Part shown: positions 566-31,480 of the stretch, piece after piece
Numbering within the stretch: the first letter of the stretch is position 1
Layout of the letters: each line of letters starts with the position of its first letter
Source: Acidobacteriota bacterium
Lineage (GTDB): Bacteria; Acidobacteriota; Terriglobia; 2-12-FULL-54-10
Assembly: GCA_009691245.1 (NCBI GenBank)
Contig: SHUM01000034.1
Location: forward strand, 1 to 36,419
Direction: 5' to 3'
Length of the DNA: 36,419 bases
The notes under the pieces: model-generated
Told to the model about the DNA's origin: nothing
Database searches by the model: none
What the model saw: the letters and a program-made list of their open reading frames with translations, nothing else
Program-made: the position numbers and the translations under genes

Positions 566-972
566 GAATGATTGCATTCCAGTTTTCATGCACTTCGAAT
601 TGGACATCTATAGAAAAGTCTCCGAAAGGCGGCTTGAAACCCTCAACATCAGTATTAGATATTCCACCCTGGCCTATTTATTAGCTGGGGATTCTTGATT
701 CCTAGGATGCTTCTGCATCTGTTCTGAAAATTTTGTTCTCACTTTGGACCAAAGGTATATACTAGCCACTATCGGAAGACCATTATGCAATTTCCGTATA
801 GATTAATAGAACTCGGACACCGCTGGTGCAAGCTACAGCGGATGCCGTTTTGCGCTCCTTAACACTGACTCGGAATCTTCATCGCTTGTGCTGCGATAGG
901 TCTGCGTCCTGACTGACGCCGGCAACAGGTTTGATTGGTAGATCATTTTGATTGGGAAAAGAGGTGGCAGAT
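566..972. other. Intergenic region upstream of the first complete receptor
   Basis: About 400 bases without a supported gene. A weak hairpin (GAATG...CATTC, 566-579) follows the receptor fragment. A possible but poor promoter is TTGTTC at 733-738, 17 bases, then TATATA at 756-761 (TATACT at 758-763 is an alternative -10). This would leave an untranslated leader of roughly 200 bases before the receptor start. The stretch is more AT-rich than its surroundings, as expected for non-coding DNA. No other structure is seen. Confidence 0.4.
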
Positions 973-3900: not shown

Positions 3901-4272
3901 GCACCGGGTGGCGTGGTTACCATTCCCGCTGGCACGCGGCTGGGAACCCCGGATATGTACTTTGATCCCTGCGCGTTTTTCCTGCCGCCGCTGGGATTCT
4001 ACGGCAATGCGGGACGCAACATCATGATGGGACCCGGCCTGCTGAGTTTCGATCTTAGTCTGCAGAAGTCGCTGCCGATGGGCGGGCGGGAAGCCACTCA
4101 GTTGGAATTTCGCGCCGATATCTTCAATCTATTCAACCACGCCAACTTCGGCAGCCCCAGCGAGGCAGTGCTGAATCCCACCAACCGCAGGTACATCGCG
4201 GGCTCTGGACTTATTACTAAAACAACTACCTCCGCGCGACAGTTGCAACTGGGGTTGCGACTGACGTTTTGA
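973..4272 (+). CDS. Oar-like TonB-dependent receptor with carboxypeptidase-regulatory domain
   Basis: Outer-membrane receptor predicted to import a ligand with energy from TonB/ExbBD. The 1,099-residue protein has a long positively charged N-terminus, a hydrophobic signal segment at about 31-50 ending AFGQA, and a carboxypeptidase-regulatory-like beta-sandwich (about 55-145) with the family's SG.LTDESS and GRFVVPQLPPGPY segments. The plug begins around 165 with EELPLNGRDFT and contains QTAWFLDGTNI, and a long barrel ends LRLTF. The ATG at 973 is chosen over an in-frame TTG at 952 because GAGGTG at 961-966 is correctly spaced for 973. It is first in a probable operon: the hydrolase-like gene starts 39 bases after its stop and the metallo-beta-lactamase gene follows. 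The ligand cannot be deduced from sequence. Confidence 0.93.
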   Translation: MFSNTVARAVVLPRNAAALGCSSARRGFGVVRLLQILLILLPFLAGIAFGQATTARLSGQLTDESSAVLPGAQISVTNQETGISRVVTSDSQGRFVVPQLPPGPYQLRATLAGFDTLVRNGITLSIGQDASLPLQMRVGGVTEQVTVTEEAPLVNTTGSAVAGVVEEKRIEELPLNGRDFTKLALVQPGVVLARKTDDVGTKGYGTRISMAGSRVDQTAWFLDGTNIKGASIFGVPGSASGLVLGVDAVREFQVLTSNLSAEFGGTSGGVINMVSKSGTNVFHGSLYAYHRNDNFDARNFFDRDPANPLVRSNPPEFKRNQFGGSIGGPVKKDQTFFFGNYEGLRERLGQTRTANVPDQNARQGILPELTAPIAVAPAIRPFLDTYPLPNSTALGGGIALLISPASVVTNENYFIGRADHRLDENQNLFFRFTFDNGTRVSPDLIPVTNGAIFTRTRYTTIQYQRVFTSQFLATTRLAYNRSVNKTEQNLIATFPAATYLLSPELPSSISFTGGTGIGPQDDPIHNAHNLYQISEDMVYSRSSHSMKIGFDFQKLGMNYDGGNRAYGSFGWANLQDFLLDRTMQTITVGIPGSSATRTLRQRYFGVYLQDDWRVRSNLTLNLGIRYDPYTVPTEKWGRLATIRDWRTATRYETDIPFFENFSTKNFSPRAGFAWDVQGNGKTSLRGGLGMFFEPITGPHYRTQSFRNQPFFAQLLAPQGGLTTVVADVARVGPTLQTTRLTENSFIQLPEYQAKSPYEIKFNLSAERELMSGLFLGLGYVGGRAIHLWRLDSCNTIEPIIRDGRTFIVAGTPRPNPIAGRCAMNYSDAQSFYNGLHVELKKRFSQGFQFQTSYTWSKTIDDSTSGVVSTDYGEGGSSQPSNPKADRGLSALHVGQNFVVNGIYAVPSLRDSGWMRLLLGGWQISNVFSAASGIPFSAQSSGTNAPDLNRSNGRQRPELAAGRSNDDIVSGTSAGCTAPGGVVTIPAGTRLGTPDMYFDPCAFFLPPLGFYGNAGRNIMMGPGLLSFDLSLQKSLPMGGREATQLEFRADIFNLFNHANFGSPSEAVLNPTNRRYIAGSGLITKTTTSARQLQLGLRLTF

Positions 4273-4311: not shown

Positions 4312-5805
4312 ATGAGTTTACTTCGCTGTCGGAAACAGATTCTCTGCACCATCGCATGGCTGGCGATCATTTGTTGTTTCGGGACCAGCAACCTGTACTC
4401 GCAGGCGGCCAGCGGTCGCAGCGAAGCCGTGGTCTCCTTCCCCACCGAGGACGGCAAAACCATCTGGGGGACGCTGCATCTGCCCAAGGCCGGCGGGCCG
4501 CGAGTTCCCGGCATCGTGATGTTCGCCGAATCGGGTTGGATTGTCCGCACCACGCTGGAGGCGCCCGGGCGCGAGATGGCGGAGAAGTATGGCATGGCCG
4601 TGCTCACCGCCGATCATCGCGGCAACGGCAGGAGCCTCAATGGCAAACAGTTCTATACCTATTCTCCTGAGGAGAAAGACGGGTTGCAGCTCGATTATCG
4701 CGGCGCCGTCAAGTTTCTTGCCTCGCAAAAGATGGTAGACCCGCAGCGCATCGGCATACTCGCCGTTGGCATCGGCGGAAATTACGCCGTTCTGGAAGCG
4801 GCCCATGACCCCGCCATTCAAGCGCTCGTGCTGGTCTCCACCACCTTGGGAGAAACCGGGCGCGAAGTGCTCCGCACGCGGCCTGATCTGCCCATCTACT
4901 GCATGGCCGGCCCTGACAACAAAGAGGACTTTCGTGTGATGGCGGATATCTTTTCTCTCTCCGCGCACAAAGACAGCAAGTTTGTGCAGACGCACAGCGG
5001 ACACGGCACGGGCATGTTCAGCCGCACGGTCGGCTCCTGGGTGGATGTCGAAAAGTGGTTCGTTGCCAATGTCAAAGCTGTGGGCATTGATTCGGAGATC
5101 ACTCTGAAGACTAGTGACGGATGGAAGCTGCACGGGCACCTGCGTGTGCCGGACGATCTCGCCGCCGGCGCGCGAGTCTCCGCCGTGGCCTTCTCGCATG
5201 GAGCCAATCACGATCAGGATACCTTCATCGATTTCACCAAGACGCTGGCCAAGGCCGGCATCGCCAGCATCATCTATGATCGGCGCGGGCGCAATACCGA
5301 CCCCGCGGAACCTCGGCCGCAGTTCGCCGGCGGCGGGCTGGGCGACGACTCTCTTGATCTGAAGGCCGCCATCGACTATCTCGCGGCGCAAAAGGAAGTG
5401 GATGCCGGGCGCATCGGCGTGGTGGGAGCGACGGCGGGAAACCAGCCCGTCTTCAAGGCCGCTATTGATGACATGCGCATCAAGACCATCGTGGCATTGA
5501 CGCTCGAGAACATTTCCGGCACGGTTACGCAGGCCGTCACCACGCGTGATATCCCCATTTTCTACATTGCCAGCACGGAGGACCTGAACACCACGCGCGA
5601 ACCTCCCGAGCATCCTTACCTCGCCGATAACTCGCGCGACGCCTACCGCATCAGCAAGAACCGCTGGTCGCAATTTTTGCTTTATGACGACGCCGGTCGC
5701 GGCTCGGAGATGGTGAAGGAGAAACCGGAGATTGAAGGCATGATGGTGCGCTGGTTTCTGGACAAGCTCGGAGCAACCCCCTCAGCGGCCAAGGCTGGGA
5801 AATAA
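4312..5805 (+). CDS. Exported tandem alpha/beta-hydrolase-fold protein (paralogue 1 of 5)
   Basis: A 497-residue protein with a signal segment (hydrophobic about 11-29) and two consecutive alpha/beta-hydrolase domains resembling dienelactone-hydrolase or acyl-peptidase-like folds. Domain 1 spans about 40-255 and domain 2 about 260-490. Each has an N-terminal DG(K/W)..G.L.(L/V)P hairpin and a DHRG or DRRG loop. The nucleophile elbow that is normally G-x-S-x-G reads AVGIG at 151-155 (Gly153 instead of Ser) in domain 1 and GATAG at 372-376 (Thr374) in domain 2. The usual His is present in domain 1 (H231, SGHG) but is Arg463 (AGRGSEM) in domain 2. Normal hydrolysis by a Ser triad is therefore doubtful. 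The ATG at 4312 is preferred over 4297 because GAGGGAG sits seven to eight bases before it. It lies between the receptor and the metallo-beta-lactamase, with short gaps on both sides. Confidence 0.85.
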   Translation: MSLLRCRKQILCTIAWLAIICCFGTSNLYSQAASGRSEAVVSFPTEDGKTIWGTLHLPKAGGPRVPGIVMFAESGWIVRTTLEAPGREMAEKYGMAVLTADHRGNGRSLNGKQFYTYSPEEKDGLQLDYRGAVKFLASQKMVDPQRIGILAVGIGGNYAVLEAAHDPAIQALVLVSTTLGETGREVLRTRPDLPIYCMAGPDNKEDFRVMADIFSLSAHKDSKFVQTHSGHGTGMFSRTVGSWVDVEKWFVANVKAVGIDSEITLKTSDGWKLHGHLRVPDDLAAGARVSAVAFSHGANHDQDTFIDFTKTLAKAGIASIIYDRRGRNTDPAEPRPQFAGGGLGDDSLDLKAAIDYLAAQKEVDAGRIGVVGATAGNQPVFKAAIDDMRIKTIVALTLENISGTVTQAVTTRDIPIFYIASTEDLNTTREPPEHPYLADNSRDAYRISKNRWSQFLLYDDAGRGSEMVKEKPEIEGMMVRWFLDKLGATPSAAKAGK

Positions 5806-5838
5806 ACCTATTTCGCCGAACGAATGAGAGGAGAGTTT

Positions 5839-6783
5839 ATGTCTAGTCGAGTGGATCAGAAAGTTGCAACGTGGCGCTGTGGCGCCTCCGCCATGATGGC
5901 CCTGGCCATTCTGCTGGCCTCCCTTTGCGCGGGAGCAGGCAGAGCCATCGCCCAGGATTCCCGCACCGAGTTGCCCGAGGGCAAGCATTCCATCAAGCCG
6001 TTCCACATCATCGGCAACATCTATTACGTGGGCCTGAACGACAACACTTCGTATCTCATCACCTCGCCGCAGGGGCATATCCTGCTCGATATGACTTATG
6101 AATCAGGCGTGCCGTTTATCCGCAAGAACATTGAAAGCCTCGGCTTCAACATCAAGGACATCAAGTACCTCATCAACGCGCACGCGCACACCGATCACGT
6201 CGGGGGGCTGGCACAATTCAAGGAACTGACCGGCGGCAAGGTCTTCGCCATGGCCGAGGATGTCCCTGCCATCTCCGGCGGCGGCCGCAGCGACCATCGC
6301 AACAAGGACGGCAAGGAACAGTGGCGGCCCGTGAAAGTGGATGAAGCGTTGAAGGACAACCAGACTGTCAGCCTGGGCGGCAATGCGCTCACCGCGCACC
6401 TGACGCCGGGCCACACCAAGGGCTGCACCACATGGACCACTACGGCGGAAGAAAACGGCAGGAAGTATAGCGTGGTGTTCGTGTGCAGCGTGGGGCTTTC
6501 CGGCATCGGCGTCGACACGGGCGTTACCTTGCTGAACAATCCCAAGTATCCCGCCATGGCGGAGGACTTCGCCAAATCGTTGAAGTTCCTGAAGAGCCTG
6601 CCGGTGGAAGTGTTCCTGGCATCGCATGGCAGCTTCTTCAGCATGGCCGAGAAGATTGAGCGTGCCGAGAAGGGCGGCGGCGCGCAAGTGTGGGTGGACC
6701 CCGCAGGCTACAAGACCTATCTGGCCAACGCCGAAAAAGCGTACCTCGCTGAAATTGCAGCGGAACGCACCAGTTCCCGATAG
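5839..6783 (+). CDS. bla: Subclass B3-type metallo-beta-lactamase, exported
   Basis: A zinc hydrolase of the metallo-beta-lactamase superfamily. The 314-residue protein starts with a signal peptide (hydrophobic about 18-38, AIAQD). It carries HAHTDH at 115-120, the third zinc ligand His192 in TPGHTKG, and His263 in ASHGSFF. The lack of a Cys at the B1/B2 ligand position, the spacing and the SHGSFF signature fit subclass B3, whose members hydrolyse penicillins, cephalosporins and carbapenems. Environmental members may act on other amides or lactones. The ATG at 5839 is chosen over 5824 because GAGAGGAGAG lies just upstream. It is third in the receptor/hydrolase operon, 33 bases after the preceding stop. 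Transport genes and a LysR-type AmpR regulator are absent, so a catabolic role is as plausible as a resistance role. Confidence 0.88.
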   Translation: MSSRVDQKVATWRCGASAMMALAILLASLCAGAGRAIAQDSRTELPEGKHSIKPFHIIGNIYYVGLNDNTSYLITSPQGHILLDMTYESGVPFIRKNIESLGFNIKDIKYLINAHAHTDHVGGLAQFKELTGGKVFAMAEDVPAISGGGRSDHRNKDGKEQWRPVKVDEALKDNQTVSLGGNALTAHLTPGHTKGCTTWTTTAEENGRKYSVVFVCSVGLSGIGVDTGVTLLNNPKYPAMAEDFAKSLKFLKSLPVEVFLASHGSFFSMAEKIERAEKGGGAQVWVDPAGYKTYLANAEKAYLAEIAAERTSSR

Positions 6784-7014
6784 CCTCAGTTTTTACTTTT
6801 CTGTGTCTGGTGATTTCAAAAATGCTCCGGTATGTGGGAGCACACCTGAATACTGAATCTCCTTGACAAGGACTGGTAGCGCGTATAATTTGGCTTCGAA
6901 TGTAGCCTTACTTTCTGGAGTAAGTTCGCGAGATTAACAGCGTTTCTTGGAAGATGAATCTCACTTAGGCGATTTCGCCAGTTCGATACAAAATGAAAAG
7001 TTCAGGAGGGATCT
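6784..7014. other. Intergenic region between two receptor operons
   Basis: 231 bases with no gene. A T-rich stretch follows the metallo-beta-lactamase stop. An imperfect hairpin (TGCTCC at 6823-6828 pairing with GGAGCA at 6837-6842) has no T-run after it, so it is a poor intrinsic terminator. A strong promoter-like pair lies further on and is listed separately. Confidence 0.5.
6863..6889 (+). promoter_or_regulatory. Sigma-70-type promoter for the second receptor operon
   Basis: A perfect -35 hexamer TTGACA at 6863-6868 and a perfect -10 hexamer TATAAT at 6884-6889 face the receptor gene starting at 7015. The spacer is only 15 bases, shorter than the optimum of 17; reading the -35 one base earlier (CTTGAC) gives 16. 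The leader would be about 115-120 bases long. Confidence 0.6.
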
Positions 7015-7563
7015 ATGCGTCGGGTAAAAGTCCTTGTGGGGTTGTCCGCCATCTGGCTACTGTTCTCCTCCGTGGCGTTCACGCAGCTTACGACAGGCAC
7101 AATCTCTGGAACGGTCAGTGATCAAAGCGGGGCTTCCGTGCCAGATGCCTCCGTGACCATCAAGAACGTCGACACTGGAATGTCCAGAGCGACTGTGACC
7201 AATGCGCAAGGACGTTACGAAGCATCGAATCTTCCCATTGGGAGATATGAAGTCGGCGTGGGCATGACCGGCTTCCAAACCAGCGTGCGCACGGGGATCG
7301 AGCTGACCGTGGGACGACATGCGGTAGTGAACACGGCGTTACAGGTTGGCGAAGTAGCCCAATCCATCACCGTTACCGGCGAAGCGGCCTACGTGGAGAC
7401 GACGACAGCCACCGTATCCAATCTGGTGGACGAAAAGCGTGTGGAAGAACTTCCGCTGAATAATCGCGACTTGACGCAGCTTGCCTACCTGCAGCCGGGA
7501 GTCCTGCGCATCCCGCAGTTTGGGGAATCCACTCCTCAGGGCGGCATGGGCGAAAAAATTTAG
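7015..7563 (+). pseudogene. Oar-like TonB-dependent receptor, N-terminal part ending at in-frame TAG
   Basis: This part holds the signal peptide (about 1-24, AFTQ), the carboxypeptidase-regulatory-like domain (about 27-115, ISGTVSDQSGASVP) and the first plug segment (EELPLNNRDLTQLAYLQPG). It starts at an ATG with AGGAGGG eight to ten bases upstream. Codon 183 is TAG at 7561-7563. The next codon continues the same frame with VGGSRGTQNVYLLDG, exactly where the other receptors read (I/F)S.(A/S)G.R...(W/Y).LDG. The stop therefore replaces a residue that is Ser in three of the four intact receptors, and one C-to-A change (TCG to TAG) would create it. A truncated 182-residue product could not form a barrel, so this is a nonsense mutation, a sequence error or a suppressed stop. 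Confidence 0.8.
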
Positions 7564-10185
7564 GTGGGCGGCTCGCGCGGAACGCAGAATGTGTACCTCC
7601 TCGATGGAGTGATCAGTGGCGATCATTCCGGGAATCCTCAAGGGGCTACTTCCGGATACGCCGGAGCGGAAACGGTAAAGGAGTTTCTGGTCATTACCAA
7701 CAATTACTCGGCCGAATATAAGAGCGCGGCTGGAGCGATTGTGAGCGCCGTAACCAAATCCGGGACGAACGAGTTTCACGGGTCGCTGTTTGAATTCCTG
7801 CGCAATGACAATGTGGATGCAACTAATTTTTTTAATAACTCCTTCGGCATTCCGAAATCGGAGTTCAAGAGAAACCAGTACGGTGGATCGCTGGGCGGGC
7901 CGGTTCTGCGCGACAGGACATTTTTCTTCGCCAGCTATGAGGGCTTGCGGGAGCGATTAGCTTCCACCGACACAGCACGTGTTCCCTCGGCGGAAGCCCG
8001 TCGGGGAATACTTCCGAACCGCACTGTCAGCGTGAATCCGTCCGTGGCGCCATTCCTGGAACTGTATCCTGTTCCGGGACAGGGCAATAATATTTTGCGC
8101 AACTTTAACGATGGGACGATTCAAATCGCCGGCCCGCGCAGTCAGCCGACGGGTCAGGATTTTGTCGCCGTGCGCATGGATCATCAACTGTCCACCGGAA
8201 AGGCCGGCACGATCTCGGGAACCTACAATTTTGATGATAGCGATCGCTCTCCCTACGGATTGTTGGGAGACGTCGGAGCGGCCGGCGCTGCTTCAATCAA
8301 GCATATTCTGTCCGTCCGGCACACCAGCTTCTTTTCCCCAACCGTGCTGAACGAATTTAGTTTTGGTTTCACGGCCAACGATCCACAGGGAGCGATTCCA
8401 CTGACGACGCGGGATTTCAGTAAAGTTCTTTTTGTTCCGGCTCGCGAAATCCTGGGCGAAATCATCGCCGGTGATTTATCCACCATCGGATACCGGCAAG
8501 GGCGCAGAAGTTTTAACCAGAAAAGTCTGTCGCTCAAGGACGGCGTATCGCTGACACGCGGCAGCCATTCGATGCGCTTTGGCGCCGAGCTGCTGCGTTA
8601 TGGCTATGACTATGAAATCTTCGGGCAAGGATTCGCCGGATCGTACACGTTCAACACACTGGAGACTTATCTAACGGGAACTCCGGCGCGCTTCCAGGCG
8701 TTGCTGCCCGGTGGAGACGACACGCGCAAACGCCTCGCGCAGATTGTGTTTGGTGCTTACGCGCAGGACAACTACACGGTAACGCCCGGGCTGACGCTGA
8801 ATCTGGGGCTGCGCTACGAGTTCGCCACAGTGCCCAAGGAGCTGGACGGCGAGTCGGCTTCACTGGTGAATTTCAATGACAGCCAGGTAACCGTAGGCCC
8901 GCTCTTCACCAACGCCACCTTGAAGAGCTTTAGCCCGCGCGTGGGTTTTGCCTGGGCTCCGTGGGACCGCAAAACTTCATTCCGCGGCGGCGTGGCAATC
9001 TTCTACGAATTTCCGGGGCTCTACCACATCCAGACTTCCATCAGCAGCATGCCGCCCTTCAATTTGCTCGGCGATGCCCGCGACACCGACGCCATCGCGG
9101 CGGGCACCATCCTGCGTTTCCCCAATGCCTACACCACGCAGGAGGCATTGCTGCGCGCGCAACCCAGCATTCGCACCATGGAATTTAATCAGAAGAACAT
9201 GACCACTTACCGCTGGAGTTTCACCATCCAACGCGAACTGAGCCGCGACCTGATCGCCACGCTGGGTTATACGGGAGCGCGCTCGTTGCACCTGTGGCAG
9301 CAGTCGGTTACCAATATCAATCGCTGGCAGGGTTGGCCGGAAAATCCCGCGGGGCCGAAATTCTGGCCCGCGATCACCGGAACTAACTTGATCAATCCAC
9401 GCTTCAATGATATTCGCCTTCAGTCGCCGAACGCGAATTCGTTTCACCACGATCTCGCCTTCGGCTTGGTCAAGCGGCTCAGCCGGGGATTCCAGGTGCA
9501 ACTGGCGTACACTTTCTCGAAGACCATCGATCAGTTCTCCGGCCTCACCAACAGCGGTGATAACCTCGCGCAAACGCAGCGCGGTATCTATGGATGGGAT
9601 ATGCAACTAGCGCGCGGCCCGGCGCAGTTTGATATCCGCAACAGCCTGGTGACCAATTTCTCCTACGAGCCCTCCTTTGCCGCCAACACCTCCGGCATAG
9701 CCGGAATGATCGCCAAAGGATGGCAGTTGAATGGCATCCTGACGCTTTCCGATGGATATCCTCTCACCGTGTTTGATGATCGCGTCGCTCAACGTAATCG
9801 CATCGGCAACGTGGAGGCCCTGCGCGCGGACTTGATCCCCGGAGGCAATGCCAATCCGGTGATTGGCGATCCAAATGGCTATTTCGATGTAACGCAATTC
9901 GCTCCTTCGCAGCTTGGATTCTTTGGGAACTTGGGTCGCAACACTATGGTCGCTCCCGGCTACGCAACTTTGGATGCGTCAATCTTCAAGAATATTTCTT
10001 TCTCGGAACAGTCGCGGCTGCAGTTCCGCGCCGAGCTGTTTAATCTCCTGAATCGCGTGAACTTTGGAGAACCGACAACCAGCATATACTCCACGGCAGG
10101 TGGTCCGATCGGTACAGCGGGGCAGATTACCTCTACCAGAACGACAGCCCGCCAGATCCAATTCGGCTTGCGGTATTCGTTTTAG
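7564..10185 (+). pseudogene. Oar-like TonB-dependent receptor, plug and barrel part after the in-frame TAG
   Basis: 873 codons in the same frame as the preceding fragment. They encode the rest of the plug (YLLDGVISGD, ETVKEFLVITNNYSAEYK), the family signature FKRNQYGGSLGGPV with FFFASYEGLRERL, the barrel, and a C-terminal LRYSF ending in Phe. The first codon is GTG, but no ribosome binding site precedes it and a protein starting here would have no signal peptide, so independent translation as a functional receptor is unlikely. Joined to the upstream part the protein would be about 1,056 residues, the normal family length. No frameshift or further stop is seen. The intact remainder suggests a recent or artefactual lesion. 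It is followed by a large inverted repeat and then the bicupin gene. Confidence 0.8.
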
Positions 10186-10203
10186 ACCATTTGCTGTTGG
10201 TCT

Positions 10204-10289
10204 ATCCGAGCCGCGACCGGGAGGGAGCGGTTGCAAGTGGACACAGTGGCGTTAATTCAGCACCGCTCCCTCCCGGTCGCGGCTCGGAT
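10204..10289. repeat. Perfect 28-bp inverted repeat with 30-base loop
   Basis: The arm at 10204-10231 is the exact reverse complement of 10262-10289. The arm core contains GAGCCGCGACCGGGAGGG. The spacer at 10232-10261 is not repetitive. It sits 18 bases after the receptor stop and 51 bases before the bicupin start, with no T-run after either arm. It may be a dispersed REP or MITE-like palindrome, and as RNA it would form a very stable hairpin that could protect or block the upstream message. No second copy was noticed in this window. Confidence 0.8.
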
Positions 10290-10340
10290 TGATCTACACC
10301 ACCAGTAAGAATGGTCTAGCCTTTGGCATGGAGGAATTTC

Positions 10341-11339
10341 ATGAGTCTTATTTCGCAAAAATTTTCTGCGCTAGCCGTAGGCATCGCTGTATGCATATCA
10401 GCCTCAGTCCGGCTCCACGCGCAACAGGCGAGCGAGACTGTCAACATGAAGCAGTATCCGCTGAAGTTTGATAAAACGCTGGGAGCCGCAGCCGCGCGGA
10501 TCGGTGAAGGGGGGCTCAAGCAGATGGACGTAACCATCGTGGAGATTCCCGCTGGCGGACAGCTCGCTTTGCATCGTCATCTCGCCGAGGAGATGGCTTA
10601 CATCATTTCCGGACAGGGTTACACGGCGATTTGGAACCAAGCCAACGGAAAGAAAGAAAAGTACATTTGGAAGGAGGGCGACTATCTATCGCCAACTCTC
10701 AATTCCTGGCATCAGTATTTCAATACTTCCACCTCCCTGCCATCGCGCATACTCCTGATTACGTCAGCCCCTCTAATCAAGAATCTCTTCAAGAGCGAAG
10801 CGCTGCTCACTTCGGTGGACTACAGTTTTCAGGAGCGATGGGAAAAGTCGGTTGCTCAGAAACCTGAGTACTTCGGCAATGTGGAGGAGGGCGCCGATGC
10901 GGTGCGCATGAAGGTGGGCCAACTGCTGCCGGATTTGCCCGGTCGCGCGATGGACGAGCGCCGCAAAGGGGTTCTGGGGATCACCATTACGCCAGAAGGC
11001 GACATGGCACAGAATCACATTATGGAGATGGAAGTGCGGGAATATCTGAACTCCGAAGAGAATTCGCCGGGGCATCGCCATGTTTGGGAAACGGTATATT
11101 TTATTGTGGGCGGGGACGGCTTCGCCATGTTGCAACGCAAAGACGAATCGGAGCGCCGCTTGAATTGGAAGGCCGGTGACCTGTTCGTTGTCGAGGCCAA
11201 TGAATATCATCTGCACAGGGCGCGCAGCGGCGGGACGGCCCGTGTAGTGCAGGTAAAAGCATCCGGCTATTTTCATGGCGTCGGACTGGCGGATGATTAT
11301 CTGATGCAACCGGGTGGATGGGCTCCTGACAAAAAATAG
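10341..11339 (+). CDS. Exported bicupin-domain protein
   Basis: A 332-residue protein with a signal peptide (hydrophobic about 9-27, LHAQQ) and two cupin beta-barrels, in the arrangement seen in gentisate dioxygenase-like and oxalate decarboxylase-like bicupins. Domain 1 has the metal motif HRHLAEE (H78, H80, E83 or E84) and a second-motif His124 in NSWHQ. Domain 2 has GHRHVWE (H245, H247, E250) and His290/His292 in EYHLH. Both metal sites therefore look intact. The reaction cannot be named from sequence, and secretion is unusual for an aromatic-ring dioxygenase. The start at 10341 is chosen over an upstream in-frame TTG because GGAGG sits six bases before it. It lies between a damaged receptor and a tandem hydrolase-fold gene, 39 bases before the latter, which suggests one transcript. 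Confidence 0.82.
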   Translation: MSLISQKFSALAVGIAVCISASVRLHAQQASETVNMKQYPLKFDKTLGAAAARIGEGGLKQMDVTIVEIPAGGQLALHRHLAEEMAYIISGQGYTAIWNQANGKKEKYIWKEGDYLSPTLNSWHQYFNTSTSLPSRILLITSAPLIKNLFKSEALLTSVDYSFQERWEKSVAQKPEYFGNVEEGADAVRMKVGQLLPDLPGRAMDERRKGVLGITITPEGDMAQNHIMEMEVREYLNSEENSPGHRHVWETVYFIVGGDGFAMLQRKDESERRLNWKAGDLFVVEANEYHLHRARSGGTARVVQVKASGYFHGVGLADDYLMQPGGWAPDKK

Positions 11340-11378
11340 CGAAAGAAAAACTGCGGCAATCAGCATGAAGGATGAATC

Positions 11379-12806
11379 ATGAAAAGACTGGCCATTCTTA
11401 TTTTCGCATTCTGTTCCGTGCCCTCGGCGCAGGCGGAAGTCCGCGAAGTCAGTTTAAAATCAGAAGACGGTTGGAAGATCAGCGGCACCTTGCATGTGCC
11501 AGACGGCATCGGAATAAAGCGAGTTCCGGGCGTGGTAATGTTGCATTCTTCCGAACATGAGCAGCAGGTCTTTGGACTCTCTTCCTATCCCGGCATGGCC
11601 ATTTCTCTTGCGGAACGGGGAGTGGTGGCGTTGCGGATTGACTGGCGGGGCCGCGGGAAAAGTATTGGCGACCTGGAATATCATTCCTTTACCTCGGAAC
11701 AGCGCGCAAAGATTTATCTCGACGTTAAGGGCGCCATAGACTTCCTGGCGGCTCAGAGTAACGTCGATGGCAAGCGCATCGGCATCGTGGGCGAAGCCGA
11801 GGGCGCGAATTATGGCGTGCTGGGAGCCGTGGGCGACGCTCGCGTCAGAGTGATGGCGTTGCTCTCGGCCCGCCTGGAAGCAAAGGCCAAAGAGTACATC
11901 GCGACTAATCCGCAGGTTGGCCTGCTTGGTATTGTGAGTACGGATGATCGGGAAGGATTTAGGGATACTTCCGAGGCTTACAATCTCTCGCAGAATCCGG
12001 AAACAGATATTCTCGTCCAGCGCGAAATGGGCATCGGCACGACCATGCTTTCATTGTTTCGCGGCAAGTATCCGAAAGAAGAGCCGCTCGATCACACCAT
12101 CGCGAATTGGCTTGCCGGAAAGCTGAAGAGCTTGGGTGAAGTTCAGGAGGCCTCGTTCCAAAGCACCGATGGTTTCACGATTTTTGGCAGCCTGCGCATT
12201 CCGGATGGGGCAACAGAAAGCTCCAAGGTACCCGGCGTGGTGATGGTGCACTCCGGCACGCGGGATCGCTACATTTTTCAGGATTTAGAACTGATGGTTG
12301 CCAAGCAGGGACTGGCTGTCTTCAACATTGACTGGCGCGGTCGAGGCCGAAGCCGTGAAAAGGGAATCTATTTTGATTTTCCGCTCGAAGTGCAGGATCG
12401 TGTCTATCAGGACGTACAGGGCGCTATCAATTTCCTGGCAGCGCAGAAAGGCGTCGATCCAAATCGTATCGGCGTGGTGGGCGCAACCTTGGGCGCTCGC
12501 AACAGCGGCAGGGCCGTGGTGGGAGACAAGCGGGTGAAAGCCGCGGTGCTGATCTCCGGATACGGCGACGACAGTGTCAAGAAATACGTCGCCGAAACTC
12601 CGCAACTGGCCGTCTTCGCCATTGCCAGCAAGGGAGACAGCGGCCCTGTGCAGGCCATGACCGAGATTATCCGCAGCTCAAAGAATCCCAATAGCCAGAT
12701 CGTTGTCTTCGGCGGCGCGGCGCGCAGCTCGCAAATATTTCAAGGTCAACCCGACCTCGAACCCAGAATCGCCGAGTGGCTCAAGGAAACATTAAGCGCG
12801 CGCTAG
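11379..12806 (+). CDS. Exported tandem alpha/beta-hydrolase-fold protein (paralogue 2 of 5)
   Basis: A 475-residue protein with a short signal peptide (cleavage near SAQAE, about 19) and two hydrolase-fold domains (about 20-250 and 258-472), each with an IDWRGRG loop. The nucleophile elbows read GEAEG at 138-142 (Ala140) and GATLG at 368-372 (Thr370). The position of the catalytic His is Ile219 in domain 1, and domain 2 has the divergent GGAARSSQ in place of the AGRGSEM of the other copies. It is the most divergent of the five paralogues and has no complete Ser-His pair in either domain. A short GAAGGA ribosome binding site precedes the ATG. It is last in its operon and converges with the minus-strand hydrolase cluster, with only 22 bases between stops and no clear terminator. 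Confidence 0.85.
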   Translation: MKRLAILIFAFCSVPSAQAEVREVSLKSEDGWKISGTLHVPDGIGIKRVPGVVMLHSSEHEQQVFGLSSYPGMAISLAERGVVALRIDWRGRGKSIGDLEYHSFTSEQRAKIYLDVKGAIDFLAAQSNVDGKRIGIVGEAEGANYGVLGAVGDARVRVMALLSARLEAKAKEYIATNPQVGLLGIVSTDDREGFRDTSEAYNLSQNPETDILVQREMGIGTTMLSLFRGKYPKEEPLDHTIANWLAGKLKSLGEVQEASFQSTDGFTIFGSLRIPDGATESSKVPGVVMVHSGTRDRYIFQDLELMVAKQGLAVFNIDWRGRGRSREKGIYFDFPLEVQDRVYQDVQGAINFLAAQKGVDPNRIGVVGATLGARNSGRAVVGDKRVKAAVLISGYGDDSVKKYVAETPQLAVFAIASKGDSGPVQAMTEIIRSSKNPNSQIVVFGGAARSSQIFQGQPDLEPRIAEWLKETLSAR

Positions 12807-12828
12807 CCGCACGCCGCAAGGTCCATAT

Positions 12829-14277
12829 CTATCGCTGACTGACCGCAGTGGGCAAAATTCCCTGTAGTTTCTCGCCGAGCCAGCGCAGGATCATGGGCTG
12901 CAGCTCGGGTTTCACTTTCAACATCTCGGAGCCGCGACCGGCGTCGTCGTAGAGCAGGAACTCACTCTGCTTGCTCTTCGAGAGTTTGTAAATCGCCCGG
13001 GTCGTTCCCGACAAATTTCCCCGCTGATAGTTATTGTCCTCCGTGCTGGCAATGGAAAGTATCGGCGTCTCGCTGGTGGTGAGCAGACGCTCCACCTCGG
13101 GATTGGTCTCGAGCGCGGTCATCAACACGACGGTCTTGACCCGCGCATCGCCCAGCGAGGCTTGCAGCGTATTCACGCAAGCAAGCGTGGCGGCCACCGC
13201 GCCAATGCGATTGCCGTCTATCGCCGGCTGGCTGGCGGCAAACTGGATCGCCGCCTTTACATCCAAATAGACTTTTTCCTGATCTGCATCTTTCGCTGGA
13301 TCTACACTGCGTCCTTTGCCGCGCCAATCGAAGCGGAGCGTTGCCAGGCCCTGCTTGGCGAGCTCCCGCGCCATGAAGAAATAAGTCTGCTGGTCATGCT
13401 TGGCTCCGTGCACCAGAACGACCACGGGCGCTTTGGCACTGGCCGTGGCCCCGTCGGGAAGCCGCAGGTAGCCATGCAGCTTCCAGCCGTCTTCGGACTG
13501 AAACGAAACTTCCTTCTCAGACCCCAGCTTCTTCAGGTTATTCTTCACCCAGTCAACAACTCGCTCTTCCAGTCCCTGCGTATGTGAAAACATGACCGCG
13601 CCGTGTCCGACCGCGACGATGAAATCGCTGGAGCGGTTCGAGGAAACAGCGTATGCCTGTGCCAACGCGCGGAAACTCTCTTTGTCTTCCTTTCCCACCA
13701 CGCCTAAGACAGGAATGCTGTTCTCCGCACTTAAATAGTTTCTTGCCTGACGGCTCAGCGTTCCAGAGATCAACACGAGCGCCTGGATCTGGGGGTTTGT
13801 GGAAGCCTCCAGCAATGCATATTCAGAACTCTCACCAGCACCCACGGCGGCGATCCGATTGCGATCAATTTCCGGTTGTGTTGACAGAAAGTTGATTGCG
13901 GCCCGCAGATCGGTTTGGATGCCCTTCTTGTCTTCGGCGGAAAATTCCTCTAGGAACTCCTTGCCTAAACTGTTGCCGCTGCCCCGCAGATCAATGCTCA
14001 AAGCAGCTATTCCGGCCTTCGCAAAATCGTCGGAAAGGTAGGTGGCATAGATGGAGCGATCGACCCACCCGGGTTCAGTCAACATGACTACCGCGGGAAT
14101 GGGACCACTGGATTGTTGATCAGGCAGTGTCAGGTTGCCGGTGATCTTCCAGCCATCCGAAGTGCTAAACGAAACAACTTTCGTCTTTGCATTTGCTGCC
14201 AGTGGAAGACCCACGTGAAATTGAATGAAAGTTAGTAATAGTAACGGCGTCGCCATGCGCTTAAGTAGTGTTCTCAT
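12829..14277 (-). CDS. Exported tandem alpha/beta-hydrolase-fold protein (paralogue 3 of 5)
   Basis: A 482-residue protein. The ATG at 14277 is chosen over upstream in-frame starts because it opens a proper signal peptide (MRTLLKRM, hydrophobic core about 9-28, AANA) and GGAGAAG lies ahead of it. Domain 1 (about 32-250) has the elbow GAGES at 146-150 with Gly148 where Ser is expected, yet keeps a His at 225 (VGHGAVMF). Domain 2 (about 255-475) has AATLA at 362-366 (Thr364), the oxyanion-type VHGAKHDQQ stretch, FDWRGKG, the acid-loop-like STEDNNY and AGRGSEM with Arg in place of His. It is last of three tandem copies on the minus strand, 73 bases after the stop of the previous one. Confidence 0.85.
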   Translation of the reverse strand: MRTLLKRMATPLLLLTFIQFHVGLPLAANAKTKVVSFSTSDGWKITGNLTLPDQQSSGPIPAVVMLTEPGWVDRSIYATYLSDDFAKAGIAALSIDLRGSGNSLGKEFLEEFSAEDKKGIQTDLRAAINFLSTQPEIDRNRIAAVGAGESSEYALLEASTNPQIQALVLISGTLSRQARNYLSAENSIPVLGVVGKEDKESFRALAQAYAVSSNRSSDFIVAVGHGAVMFSHTQGLEERVVDWVKNNLKKLGSEKEVSFQSEDGWKLHGYLRLPDGATASAKAPVVVLVHGAKHDQQTYFFMARELAKQGLATLRFDWRGKGRSVDPAKDADQEKVYLDVKAAIQFAASQPAIDGNRIGAVAATLACVNTLQASLGDARVKTVVLMTALETNPEVERLLTTSETPILSIASTEDNNYQRGNLSGTTRAIYKLSKSKQSEFLLYDDAGRGSEMLKVKPELQPMILRWLGEKLQGILPTAVSQR

Positions 14278-14350
14278 GATCGGTCTTCTCCATTCAATTC
14301 TGCGCACCTTGAAATGATTGCAGACAATTTTTTGCATATCGAGACAGACG

Positions 14351-15862
14351 CTAACGCGAAGCCGCCACGGCATCTCCCGCTTTTCCGCCTGCGGTGGCAC
14401 CTGGCTTCAGCTTGTCCACGAACCAGCGCAGCACCATTCTTTGCAGTTCGGGCTTGGACTTGAACATTTCCGAGCCGCGTCCAGCATCTTCGTAGAGAAT
14501 CAATTCACTTTCCCTGCTGGTAGAAAGTAAATAGGTTTTGCGCGTCTCCTCGGCGAGACTGCCGCGGTTGTAGTTAATATCTTCGGTGCTGGCCACGGCA
14601 AGAATCGGCCGGCCAGCCTTAACCAGCAAATCCTGTGCCTCTCCTTCGGGGGCAGCAGCAGACGTGAGCAACACCATGGTCTGAATACGGTCATCTCCTG
14701 AGGCAGCGCGCAAAGCGTGATCCGTTCCCGCGGTAGCGCCGATCAGGCCGATCCGCCTGGCATCCACGCTCGTCTCGGAAGCCAGCGCATCAATCGCGGC
14801 CTTCACATCCAGAAAAATCTTTTTCTCTTCTTCCTCGGACATATCGATGCTGTAGGATGGTTTACCTTCCGCAATGCTCGTGCCTTTGCCGCGCCAGTCG
14901 AAACGCAAACTCGCAATGCCCTGCTTGGCCAACTCCTCGGCCAGGTGCTGATAGGTCTGCAGATCATGCCGTGCGCCGTGAACCATCACCACGCCCGACG
15001 CCTTCGCTGTATCGGAGGCTCCCTGTGGAATCCGCACTCTGCCGCGCAGTTGCCAGCCATCGGATGATTTGAACGAGACTTCCCGCTCCGAACCCAGGCC
15101 TGGCAGGTTCTTATTCATCCAGGCGACCACTCGTTCCTCAAGCCCTTTGGTATGCGAAAACATTCCCGCGCCGTAGCCGACTTCAATCAAAATGTCGCTT
15201 GATGGGTTGGGCGAAAGCGCGTAGTTTTCCGCCGCTGTATAGAAACTGTCCTTGTCATCTTTGCCGACCACGCCCAGTAAAGGAACGCTGCGCTCCGAAC
15301 GGAGGTACGCCCGGCTGGCCTCGTTCGCGGTGCCGGAGATCAGGACCAGCGCCCGCACATTAGGATTTTCCTCGGTAGCCTTCACCGCGTAATCCGCGCT
15401 CCAACTCGCCGCGACCAACGCAAGACGGCTGGAGTCAACTTCGGGCCGAGCGGATAGAAATTCCAGCGCCGCGCGCACGTCCAGCATGATTGCGTCGCGC
15501 TCCTCACGCGTGAAATCAAAGAACTCTTTCTTCCCCACGCTGGCGCCGGTGCCGCGGTAATCCAGTGTCAGCACCGCGTATCCATTCTCCGCCAGCTTCC
15601 CGGAGAGGTAAGTCCCGTATACAGTGCGGTCTTCCCAGGCGGGTTCGGATAGCAGCACGGCGGCGGGCACGCGCGCGCTGGTGGGAACTTTGGGGAGATA
15701 CAGAGTCCCAGTCAATTTCCAACCATCGCTGGCGGTGAAATGGACCACCGTTTCAGCGTGAACACGCTGGACCACCACGCCTAGCAGGACGACCAAGGCG
15801 AGTGGGAACCACTTGCGTAGGAGCTGCCCAGTGAGCGCCTTGAACATTTGACAAGTCTTCAT
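14351..15862 (-). CDS. Exported tandem alpha/beta-hydrolase-fold protein (paralogue 4 of 5)
   Basis: A 503-residue protein with a signal segment (about 18-37, VHAE) and two hydrolase-fold domains (about 38-255, 260-485). This is the only copy with a Ser at the first elbow (AASWS, 151-155, Ser153), though the flanking glycines are Ala and Ser and the expected His is Tyr230 (VGYGAGMF). The second elbow is GATAG at 375-379 (Thr377), again with AGRGSEM instead of a His. The ATG at 15862 follows the upstream stop directly (TAG then TGATG overlapping). AAGGA lies eight bases before the ATG, and a GTG at 15865 is an alternative start. The stop/start overlap predicts translational coupling to paralogue 5. 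The N-terminal SDGWKL..G.L.LPK motif repeats at the start of domain 2. Confidence 0.85.
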   Translation of the reverse strand: MKTCQMFKALTGQLLRKWFPLALVVLLGVVVQRVHAETVVHFTASDGWKLTGTLYLPKVPTSARVPAAVLLSEPAWEDRTVYGTYLSGKLAENGYAVLTLDYRGTGASVGKKEFFDFTREERDAIMLDVRAALEFLSARPEVDSSRLALVAASWSADYAVKATEENPNVRALVLISGTANEASRAYLRSERSVPLLGVVGKDDKDSFYTAAENYALSPNPSSDILIEVGYGAGMFSHTKGLEERVVAWMNKNLPGLGSEREVSFKSSDGWQLRGRVRIPQGASDTAKASGVVMVHGARHDLQTYQHLAEELAKQGIASLRFDWRGKGTSIAEGKPSYSIDMSEEEEKKIFLDVKAAIDALASETSVDARRIGLIGATAGTDHALRAASGDDRIQTMVLLTSAAAPEGEAQDLLVKAGRPILAVASTEDINYNRGSLAEETRKTYLLSTSRESELILYEDAGRGSEMFKSKPELQRMVLRWFVDKLKPGATAGGKAGDAVAASR

Positions 15863-15864
15863 CA

Positions 15865-17358
15865 CTAGCGTCCTTGTGAGATTTGCTGGGAAGACTTCGA
15901 CTCGGTGCCCGCGTCCAACTTTTCCGCGAACCAGCGCAGCACCATGCGTTCCAACTCCGGTTTGGACTTCAACATCTCCGAGCCGCGGCCCGCATCGTCA
16001 TAAAGGAGCAACTCACTTTCCTTGTTGTTTGAGAACGAATGCGCTTTCCGCGTCTCTTCGGCCAGGCTTCCGCGGCCATAGTTGATGTCCTCTAGGCTGG
16101 CAATGGCAAAGATGGGTTTCCCGCTTTCCACGATGAACTGCTTGGCCTCGCCCTGCGGAGCCAGGTTGGAAGTCAGCAGGACCACGGTCTGGATGCGGTT
16201 GTCCTTGTAAGCCGCGCGCAACGCATAGCCCGTTCCCGCAGTGGCGGCGATCATCCCTATTCGATTGGCATCGATCGCCGCGTTGGAGGCCAGTATATTA
16301 ACCGCGGCCTTCACGTCGCGATAAGTGGCTTCCGTTTCGGCATCGGACATATTGATCCCGTAGAGATCCTTGCCTTCCGCGATACTGCGGCCCTTACCCC
16401 TCCAATCGAAGCGGATAGTAGCGATGCCCTTCTTCGCCAGCTCTTGCGCGAGTTGGTGGTAAGTCTGCTGGTCGTGTTTGGCGCCGTGAACCATCACCAC
16501 GGCGGGAACTTTTGCGCCCACGGGCAGGCCATCCGGCACGCGCACACTGCCCCGCAAATCCCAGCCGTCTTCGGAGCGGAAGGAAACTTCCGTCTGTGTG
16601 CCAATCCCTTTCAGGTTGGTGGTAAGCCAATCGACGACTTTTTCCTCCAAGCCGGCGGTATGAGAAAACATGGAAGTGCCATGTCCCTTGGCCATGATGA
16701 ATTCGCTATCCACATGTTTGGCATGGGAGTAGGCATCCGCCGCGGATTGGAAACGCTTCTTGTCCTCCCGGCCCACGATGGAGAAGACGGGCACATCGGA
16801 ACGAAAATCAATGGCCTTTTTCGATTCGTCCTCCAATTGCGCAGACAACATCACCAGCGCCTTCACGGCCGGGTTGTCGCCAGCTTCCAGCGCGGCAAAA
16901 TGCGCGCTCAGCCCGGTTCCCAGGATGGCCACGCGCGACGGATCCATGCCCTTGTAAGCTGCAAGGAACTTGATGGCGGCAGTGATATCGTTGCGCAGTC
17001 CTGCCATATCCTTTTCGGAGAATTGCACAGCATCCTTCTTGCCGAGACTGCTGCCCATGCCCCGGAAGTCGATGGCCAGCGCCGCGATATTCCGCTGGGC
17101 CAACTTCTCGGCGAGATAACCGGAAAATGTGGTTCGATCAATCCATTCCGGCTCGGTCAGCAGCAGCACCGCCGGCATGGGCGTCGCTGGCGCCTGCTTG
17201 GGCAGGAATAGCGTGCCGTCAATCGTCCAGCGATCCTGCGTGGGAAAGCTCACACGGGTTTGCGCAGTCGCCTCCTGGGCCATGGACAAGCTAAAGATCA
17301 TAAGCAGCACAGGCTGAATCAGGCTACCGATAAAACCGAAGATGCGTTTTGTGTTCAT
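15865..17358 (-). CDS. Exported tandem alpha/beta-hydrolase-fold protein (paralogue 5 of 5)
   Basis: A 497-residue protein with a signal segment (about 7-33, ATAQ) and two hydrolase-fold domains (about 34-252, 257-482). Domain 1 elbow is GTGLS at 147-151 (Gly149 instead of Ser), with His225 retained in KGHGTSMF. Domain 2 elbow is AATAG at 371-375 (Thr373), with VHGAKHDQQ, FDWRGKG and AGRGSEM (Arg where His is expected). GAGGAG precedes the ATG by seven bases. It is the first of three tandem paralogues downstream of a receptor gene, separated from it by 113 bases containing a terminator-like hairpin, so its expression may be lower than that of the receptor or partly independent. Confidence 0.86.
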   Translation of the reverse strand: MNTKRIFGFIGSLIQPVLLMIFSLSMAQEATAQTRVSFPTQDRWTIDGTLFLPKQAPATPMPAVLLLTEPEWIDRTTFSGYLAEKLAQRNIAALAIDFRGMGSSLGKKDAVQFSEKDMAGLRNDITAAIKFLAAYKGMDPSRVAILGTGLSAHFAALEAGDNPAVKALVMLSAQLEDESKKAIDFRSDVPVFSIVGREDKKRFQSAADAYSHAKHVDSEFIMAKGHGTSMFSHTAGLEEKVVDWLTTNLKGIGTQTEVSFRSEDGWDLRGSVRVPDGLPVGAKVPAVVMVHGAKHDQQTYHQLAQELAKKGIATIRFDWRGKGRSIAEGKDLYGINMSDAETEATYRDVKAAVNILASNAAIDANRIGMIAATAGTGYALRAAYKDNRIQTVVLLTSNLAPQGEAKQFIVESGKPIFAIASLEDINYGRGSLAEETRKAHSFSNNKESELLLYDDAGRGSEMLKSKPELERMVLRWFAEKLDAGTESKSSQQISQGR

Positions 17359-17471: not shown

Positions 17472-20400
17472 TCAGAAAGAAAATTTCAAGCCGAACTGCA
17501 TTTGCCTGGAAGTGCTGACGGTGCGCGTGATTTTCCCGGCGTTGTCAACAGGCGCACCCGTGGCGCCACTGATCGCCTGCCGGACGGAGGGGATGGCGAA
17601 ATTGGCACGATTCAACAGATTAAAGAAGTCCGCTCGAAACTCCAGTCGGCTTCCTTCCTTTAAGCCAACAGGGATGTCCTTGCGCAGGCTGCTGTCGAAT
17701 GAGGCAAAGCCTGGTCCAAGCAAAACATTGCGCCCCACGATGCCGTAGGTCCCGACGGGCGGGAGGATGAAGCCAGAGGGATCGAAATACTGGTCGAGGT
17801 TTCCCTCTCTAATCAGGCTTTGGATGCTTCGGCCCACGGCAAAATCAGGCCGCTGAACACTTGCTCGCCCCTGGTCCGGAGCACGCCGCCCATTCAGCGT
17901 AACCAAGAATGGAGTTCCCGAAGATGCCGAAAAGATTCCCGACAGATTCCATCCTCCCAGTACGCCCGACACCACTCCGTGATCCTTCGGGAACGGGATG
18001 GCCCACAATCCATTCAAGACCCAATTGTGTCCCACGTGAATGGCGGAGAGACCACGATCCGCTTTGGTGTTGTGCGGGCGCGAGCTGGCTCCTTCCTGAT
18101 AGTCGGTATTGGCGGTGGCCGTGGAGGAGTCATCGATGGTCTTGGACCATGAATAGGAGCTCTGCAGCTGGAAACCCCGATTCAGTCGTTTCTTGACCTG
18201 AAATTGTAGCCCGTTGTAGAACGATTGAGCGTCCGCGTTCCTGGCATCACCCAGCCCGGCGTTTAGATTTGGACGCGGCGACCCGGCGGCGACGAACTCC
18301 CGGCCATCTTCACGTATCGTACTGTAGCTGGCGTTGGCCACGCTCGAACGCCACAGGTGAACTCCGCGACCGCCCAGATAGCCCAGCGAAACGGACATAT
18401 CTCCGGGCAGTTCCCGTTCCACGGTCAGATTGAACTTGATCTCATATGTGGGGTTCAAGTTGTATTCAATCACTTCGATCAAGCTCGCAGGGTTCATTTG
18501 CGAGGTCAGAATACTGGAGCCGATACCACGCACCGCGGCGATGGTTGAAGCCATATTTCTCTGAGTTCCCAGCGGCTCCTCGATGTTCCCGGCAAATGGA
18601 GGATTCTTCTGGGACATGGATCGATAGTAAAAATTCAGCGTGTCCACGAAGAACAATCCAAATCCACCCCGCACGGCTGTCTTGCCGTCGCTGCCCGGAT
18701 CCCAGGCGAATCCAACGCGCGGCGAAATGTTCTTCTTCGAGGGATTATTCCAGAAGGGGACGCCGACATCGTAGTGCGTGGCGTTCACCCAATCCTTGAT
18801 GACTGAAACACGCCCCCACTTTTCTCTCGGAGTCGTGAATGGCTCATAGCGAACGCCCAGATTCAGGGTGAGGTTGGGCCGCCATTTCCAATCGTCCTGC
18901 AAATAAAGTCCAATCACGTTCTGGCGGAACGAACGATGCGTCGAGCTACCGGGCACGGATACCGCAAAGGCATTCAACGGCCCGATATCCTGGATAAAAC
19001 TGCTCATCGTGGGCCAGTTGAAATCTCCGGTGTCGCCGCCGCCTCCAAAGTTGTGGAACCAATACGCTTCGAGATTTCCGCCAAACTTCATGGAGTGATT
19101 GCCGGGCGTATAGATAAAGCTCTGCGAGAGCTGCCACAGGTTTTGGACGTTGCCGAAGATATTGCGATCCGTCGGCCCCAGCTCTGTGCCGCCCGTAAAG
19201 CCCACCTGAGAAGGAACGGTCTGATTAAAGATGAAGGTTCCGGCTGGGAATTCAACGTTGAGCGCGACATCGGAATTCAACACGGTGCGATTGAATGCCA
19301 GCCGGCTATTGGAAAGAAATTTCGAATTTACGATGCGGTCATATTGGATGGTGTAGTAACCGGTCTGCGTGGGAATAACGCCATCGGTTAGCGGAATCGC
19401 GTCGGGCCGGCTCTTCTCCGTGTCGTCAAATACAATGCGTCCAAACAGGGTTGCCTTTTCCGACAGCACATAGTCCAGGCGACCCATGAAGTAATCCTGA
19501 TTCGTCTTATCCGATCCGGGGATGAAGAGTTCCGCGGTTCCGTTGGGCAATCCATTGGGACCGAGGCCAAGCTTGCCGTTTGGAAGCGGATAAGTATCGA
19601 GGAACGGACGGACCACCGGGGCTACCTGTATCTGCGTCAGAACCCCCTGCGCGTTCGGAAGCAAACCGCGGTGCGCGTTTTCGTCGGGGACTATCGCCAG
19701 GGAAATCAGGCCCAGCCGCTGCCGCATTCCTTCGTAGTTTCCAAAAAAGAATGCTTTGTCTTTTTTTATTGGCCCGCCCACGGAAAATCCGAACTGATTT
19801 CTCTTAAACTCCGGCTTATTGGGAATGTCAAAGAAATTGCGCGCGTCCAAATTGTCATTGCGATGGAAGGCGTATACCGTGCCGTTGATTTCATTCTTCC
19901 CGGACTTGGTTACCATGTTCACCACGCCGCCGCTGTTGCCGCCGTATTCCGCGCTGTAGTTGCTGGTGAGCACCTGAAATTCGCGGATGGCATCGACTCC
20001 CAGCAGCAGGCCGGATGAACTGCCCGGCGTTCCGAAATTGGCCATGCTCTTGATGTTGGTCCCGTCCAGCAGCCAGGCGGTCTGATCCGCTCGCGACCCA
20101 GCCGCCGCCACGCGGACGCCAAATCCCTTGGTGGCCACCTGATCCGTATTCCTGACCGCGACAATGCCCGGCTCGATCAAGGCCAGTTGCGTGAAGTCCC
20201 TGCCGTTCAGTGGCAGTTCCACAATTCTTTTTTGCTCCACCACACCGGAGACGGCGCTGGAAGATGTATCCACCAGTGGAGCTTCTCCCACTACGGTAAC
20301 GCGCTCGGAGACGGCGCCGACCCTCATGCGCATCGCCACCGTCGCCTCTTGGCCGATGGCCAGAGTGATCCCGCTGCGCACTGTGGTCTCGAAGCCTGTC

Positions 20401-29548: not shown

Positions 29549-29592
29549 TTTCCGTTGCGGGGGCCGTATCGACGAGGCACATGGAGGCAATC

Positions 29593-31402: not shown

Positions 31403-31480
31403 TCAATGTGGACTAGGAGGTCCGTTACGTTTCTCAAGATCACGAATCATTTATAGCGGCTCATCACTATGGAGGGAACG

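Follow-up and report, generated by a model that had tools for sequence, protein, structure and literature searches.

The analysed stretch of 36,419 nucleotides from a soil bacterium, referred to as the window, encodes five putatively exported proteins of about 475-504 amino acids, each of which consists of two alpha/beta-hydrolase domains. The genes lie at positions 4312-5805 (P0001, forward strand), 11379-12806 (P0002, forward), 12829-14277 (P0003, reverse), 14351-15865 (P0004, reverse) and 15865-17358 (P0005, reverse), and all five reading frames are open. For P0003, the start was placed at the ATG at 14277, although translation may instead begin upstream, at a GTG at 14400. In all five proteins, the two domains are preceded by a hydrophobic N-terminus of the Sec type, which was recognised by eye from the sequence. 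Alpha/beta-hydrolase matches above the Pfam gathering scores were obtained for every copy, often in two stretches per protein, and AF2 models likewise contained the fold twice, in agreement with the preliminary description of five two-domain paralogues. Within the own genome, a profile built from the five matched only these five copies of the window.

Genes for Oar-type TonB-dependent receptors are located at 952-4272 (forward strand), immediately upstream of P0001, and at 17472-20654 (reverse strand), upstream of P0005 on the same strand; both gene blocks in the window directly adjoin one of these receptor genes. Between P0001 and P0002, on the forward strand, an exported metallo-beta-lactamase-fold (MBL) protein (5824-6783), a further Oar-type receptor (7015-10185) and an exported double-cupin protein (10323-11339) are encoded. 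The first of these matched the NCBIfam subclass B3 model with 292.9 bits at a cutoff of 240 bits; this subclass-B3-type protein sits in a nutrient-receptor cluster, and beta-lactams or lactones are candidate substrates. The frame of the 7015-10185 receptor is broken by a TAG at 7561-7563 (residue 183), whereas a sense codon occupies this place in the open frame of the orthologue from the same genus (L037, 3444-6554). The TAG is either a nonsense mutation or a sequencing error. The double-cupin gene adjoins P0002, and this pairing is conserved in the sister genome G001.

Structure models were obtained for P0005 (mean pLDDT 83.0, pTM 0.74) and P0002 (pLDDT 84.9, pTM 0.81), each with two full series of strands and helices. 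In domain 2 of P0005, strand beta5 comprises residues 362-373 and the next helix begins at 374 and ends at 383, which places Thr373 at the nucleophile elbow; an alignment to MHETase (9pjb), the best sequence match and one to domain 2, also put Thr373 on the elbow Ser position. In domain 1, a strand at 138-148 and a helix at 150-161 place Gly149 at the first elbow. Asp199 and Asp424 follow beta7, and His226 and Arg458 follow beta8. Ala140 and Thr370 of P0002 likewise end or follow beta5 before the next helix. The core order of the alpha/beta-hydrolase superfamily, with an elbow between beta5 and the next helix, was thus found twice per protein, based on AF2 models, PDB matches and Pfam. An intact triad elsewhere in the domains was ruled out for the modelled P0005 and P0002, since the substituted residues occupy the canonical elbow, acid and His positions of the models.

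Among the top 50 listed structural matches, no solved structure spanned both domains (TM-score by query at most 0.40). The best matches were PET46 (8b4u), the ferulic acid esterase of L. buchneri (7z2u) and a Thermoanaerobacter lipase (7q4h). These feruloyl/PETase-type and lipase enzymes share the core fold with each domain (TM-score by target approximately 0.6-0.7), and the identity of the five proteins to the listed matches is roughly 12-22%. They are single domains with an intact Ser-Asp-His triad, whereas the five are tandem proteins lacking the combination of Ser and His in either domain.

At the second nucleophile elbow, all five proteins carry Thr, as had been claimed: Thr374 in P0001 (codon 5431-5433), Thr370 in P0002 (12486-12488), Thr364 in P0003 (13186-13188), Thr377 in P0004 (14732-14734) and Thr373 in P0005 (16240-16242). 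The residue numbers given earlier were correct; that of P0004 counts from the ATG and becomes 378 if the GTG is counted, as is done for the other residues of this protein below. The acid position in domain 2 is occupied by Asp424 (P0001), Asp414 (P0003), Asp429 (P0004) and Asp424 (P0005). Replacement of the second-domain His by Arg is real, but it affects all five copies (Arg463, Arg449, Arg448, Arg463 and Arg458 in P0001 to P0005); the earlier count of four was slightly low because P0002 also carries the Arg, within the motif AARSSQI.

The first elbows read Gly153, Ala140, Gly148, Ser154 and Gly149 in the order P0001 to P0005, and the corresponding His positions His231, Ile219, His225, Tyr231 and His226, so that the one copy with Ser has Tyr in place of His, as described before. 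Except in P0002, the usual His-Gly of the oxyanion loop is also lost from domain 1, the His position being occupied by Glu at residues 73, 68, 74 and 69 of the four other copies. None of the domains contains a pair of Ser and His, and the combination of a Ser, Cys or Asp nucleophile with an acid and a His within one domain, as in the alpha/beta serine hydrolases (PF12146, PF01738), was not found in the five proteins. Loss of serine-hydrolase chemistry is well supported by these sequences. No NCBIfam family matched the five above its cutoff. The best match for all of them was the N-acyl-homoserine lactonase UilS (NF047920), which was rejected at 50.0-71.3 bits against a cutoff of 400; membership in other named NCBIfam hydrolases was ruled out by scores far below the cutoffs.

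Relatives were found in only 8 of roughly 800 Acidobacteriota genomes searched. The profile of the five recovered full-length relatives in G001, which belongs to the same genus (five copies), G005 (six), G006 (three) and G023 (one), and further ones in G066, G518 and G608. At E ≤ 1e-60, matches were present in 4/7 genomes of the order, 6/399 of the class and 3/396 of the phylum sample; other genomes in the orders of G518 and G608 lacked the family. Among 84,980 species scanned, full-length relatives occurred in Acidobacteriota records only, the remaining matches being partial and to single domains of other hydrolases. A plasmid search returned weak partial matches, none covering 80% of the query. 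The family is rare and patchily distributed.

The family set used for comparison comprised 39 proteins, some of them partial, and a Ser/His pair was present in neither domain of any of them. In the tree, the family was split at full support (100/100) into clade A, containing P0001, P0003, P0004, P0005 and their relatives, and a distant clade B, which unites the divergent copy P0002 and its orthologue with the G518/G608 proteins. The 21 proteins of clade A and of the P0002 orthologue pair, from six genomes, were treated as the lineage of the window. All 21 have Thr at elbow 2, encoded by all four Thr codons (ACG in 9, ACC in 6, ACT in 4 and ACA in 2), and the domain-2 His position is always basic (Arg in 18, His in 2, Lys in 1). 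Of the 482 columns ranked by conservation within clade A, His295 was 3rd, His291 4th, Thr373 11th, Arg75 21st and Glu69 30th (P0005 numbering). Homologues that vary at random in place of the Thr and the Arg, which had been named beforehand as refuting a constrained role, were observed among the G518/G608 relatives and not within the clade of the window. In the former, elbow 2 is Val or Asp (three each) or Tyr, Ser, Ala or Ile (two each) where resolved, and the His position is hydrophobic (Val, Leu or Ile); within clade B, elbow 2 ranked among the least conserved columns (402 of 460). Since both positions vary freely in these two distant genomes, the constraint on Thr is real but lineage-specific, and the residue is not a family-wide catalytic one.

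These data bear on the suggestion that Thr acts as nucleophile. According to this minority reading, domain 2 would cleave activated esters or lactones through Thr373 and Asp424, with His/Arg458 or His295 as the base. It draws on the presence of Thr in 21/21 proteins, the intact oxyanion-loop His-Gly of domain 2, the retained Asp, the invariance of His295 in clade A, and a complete Thr-Asp-His in domain 2 of two relatives in G005 (L158, 10314-11870, on contig C44; L157, 5516-7090, on contig C43). Against this stand the Arg at the base position in 18/21 proteins, including all five of the window, and the freedom of elbow 2 to vary in the sister clade. Natural alpha/beta-hydrolases with a nucleophilic Thr are not known to us, and none came up when the open-access literature was searched for one. 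With the general-base His replaced by Arg, a Thr nucleophile is unlikely in the five proteins, and a Thr hydrolase is regarded as an improbable account; within the family, the two G005 relatives with Thr-Asp-His would be the natural candidates for hydrolysis through Thr. Yet more doubtful is the specific proposal that domain 2 was rewired around the elbow Thr, with the invariant oxyanion-loop His295 or His/Arg458 as base, and that the G005 proteins with Thr-Asp-His are surviving intermediates between Ser-Asp-His and Thr-Asp-Arg; this is given very little credence.

Non-hydrolytic catalysis was also considered, in which the proteins would be lyases, isomerases or cofactor-free oxygenases that employ either His226 of domain 1 or His295 and Arg458 of domain 2. 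An Asp-His pair survives beside the Gly elbow in several first domains, and the fold is known to have been adapted to oxygenation (PMC10548524). Even within clade A, however, the first-domain His position is variable (His in 8, Tyr in 4, Arg in 2, Glu in 1), so that no single chemistry of this kind fits, and such catalysis is considered a slim prospect.

The closest single-domain relatives found (L011, L012, L021, L013 and L014) are 25-35% identical to individual domains. Like the five, these acidobacterial proteins have N-termini of the exported type; unlike them, they possess one hydrolase domain only, and L011, L012 and L021 keep the elbow Ser and the His, which the tandem proteins do not. 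When the domains were placed in a tree separately, all first domains grouped together (92/94), the second domains formed two groups, and the five intact single-domain proteins fell outside or between these groups; the deep branches received moderate support only. This tree fits a single ancient tandem duplication of a serine hydrolase with subsequent loss of the triads. Substituted elbows were also seen in two other acidobacterial alpha/beta-hydrolases, namely L010, with Asn instead of Ser and the His kept, and L015, with Glu at this place and an N-terminal fusion that resembles a CarboxypepD_reg domain.

The first-elbow Ser of P0004 had been described as kept. It occurs only in the orthologue group of this protein (three proteins), always together with Tyr at the His position. 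As the protein is nested among Gly-elbow proteins in the tree and a single change separates its Ser codon (AGT) from the GGT of the relatives, the Ser was more likely regained, which is more parsimonious than retention.

Selection was assessed from dN/dS between the own genome and G001. Values of 0.05-0.06 were obtained for P0001, 0.06 for P0002, 0.03-0.05 for P0003, 0.12-0.14 for P0004 and 0.06 for P0005, similar to or below that of the neighbouring MBL gene (0.11-0.14). The degradation of both triads and the clustering of five paralogues could be taken as signs of decaying duplicates that drift towards pseudogenes. With dN/dS ratios of 0.03-0.14 this is excluded for practical purposes; in addition, the frames are open in both sister genomes and the Thr is invariant over all four of its codons. 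The five genes are maintained, and the earlier view of constraint rather than decay was upheld by these ratios and by the rank of Thr (11 of 482 columns) within its clade.

The neighbour pairs of the window are kept in G001. In G005, one pair of family genes alternates with receptor genes in the order family-receptor-family-receptor, another copy adjoins a receptor gene, and a second pair is separated from receptors by about 3 kb; direct adjacency to Oar-TonB genes was seen on contigs C43 and C44. The receptor nearest the pair at about 3 kb is the best G005 match to the 17472-20654 receptor (55%) and matches the 952-4272 receptor at 60%. Amidase or amidohydrolase genes are close to family copies in G005 and G023. 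The copies in G518 and G608 are dispersed over long clusters with genes for GMC oxidoreductases, amidohydrolases, MFS transporters, aldehyde dehydrogenase, a luciferase-like monooxygenase and haem proteins, and with a TonB receptor gene within. These catabolic clusters (G518 contig 62, L146-L148; G608 contigs 126 and 131, L149-L151) are similar in content, although the two genomes belong to different acidobacterial families; the patchy distribution suggests horizontal transfer. The association with receptors proposed in the preliminary description was recovered in G000, G001, G005 (C43 and C44), G518 and G608, with family genes beside or in a cluster with TonB receptor genes. No receptor neighboured the copies in G006, G023 and on contig C21 of G005, and Oar receptors are numerous, with 78 matches in the own genome of 3.4 Mb, so that some adjacency is to be expected and the link is suggestive only. 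A literature search joining Acidobacteria, TonB receptors and tandem proteins of this type found nothing relevant.

The non-catalytic alpha/beta-hydrolases that we are aware of, including those found in the literature, are mostly animal proteins. The class includes the NDRG family (NDRG3; PMC7022630) as well as the neuroligins and the C-terminal domain of thyroglobulin (PMC5943944), in which, as in the five proteins, the fold is kept and the triad replaced (PMC7022630, PMC5943944). Retention of the fold, loss of the triad and purifying selection, three marks of this class, were all found in the five, and they probably represent a small new branch of these "dead" hydrolase-fold proteins. The animal proteins have one such domain and act as protein partners or chaperones, whereas the five are bacterial, exported, arranged in tandem and encoded beside TonB receptors.

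The chief rival to a binding role for small ligands is a protein-protein scaffold, in which both pockets would be dead and the fold would offer an adhesion or assembly surface for TonB receptors or envelope proteins. It is in keeping with the absence of triads from both domains, the adjacent receptor genes in several genomes and the precedents of neuroligin and NDRG (PMC5943944, PMC7022630). In clade A, moreover, the catalytic-face loops were not conserved significantly more strongly than the remainder of the domain (p = 0.28 and 0.13), which counts against a purely pocket-based account. Contrary to this reading, clade A strongly conserves four pocket positions (Thr373, His291, His295 and the basic residue 458), and clade B shows higher conservation in the catalytic-face loops than elsewhere (p = 0.0004 and 0.02, uncorrected). 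A scaffold is considered unlikely, though it deserves to be taken seriously.

The reading preferred here, to which about even chances are given, is that the five are periplasmic tandem pseudohydrolases serving as ligand-binding accessory proteins of receptor and catabolic clusters. Sequence and tree support the view that an ancestral single-domain serine hydrolase was duplicated in tandem and that both domains then lost serine-hydrolase chemistry. In the lineage of the window, a second pocket consisting of His291-Gly, His295, Thr373, Asp424 and a basic residue at 458 (Arg, His or Lys) was kept under selection, and the first pocket was rebuilt with Glu69-Pro-x-Trp and a Gly elbow. His291, His295, Thr373, Asp424 and Arg458 may line the second pocket and Glu69-Pro-x-Trp the first. 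A small ligand would be bound in the pockets and not hydrolysed; plausible candidates are an ester, or an acid whose carboxylate meets the Arg. As binding or delivery proteins, the five may assist the TonB-dependent receptors and the exported enzymes whose genes lie alongside, and the paralogues presumably differ in specificity.

If this is true, the family would offer a tractable example of how an enzyme fold becomes a binding module: its members are bacterial, exported and tandem, come as several paralogues in a genome, have links to TonB receptors and show reproducible substitutions (in domain 2, Thr for Ser and Arg for His; in domain 1, Gly for Ser and Glu-Pro for His-Gly). It would also point to substrates for the very large and mostly unassigned sets of Oar-type receptors of soil Acidobacteriota. 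The relatives with Thr-Asp-His make the order of triad loss testable.

Two further loci of the window were noted. At 29581-32788, two adjacent genes for SoxC-like sulfite dehydrogenases, both above the TIGR04555 cutoff, flank a cytochrome c gene, and a further TonB receptor gene lies upstream. At 21283-22932, an exported propeller protein resembling Vgb lyase is encoded. Its N-terminal domain is of the CarboxypepD_reg type, and its CGTGCH (CxxxCH) motif is possibly an unusual haem site.
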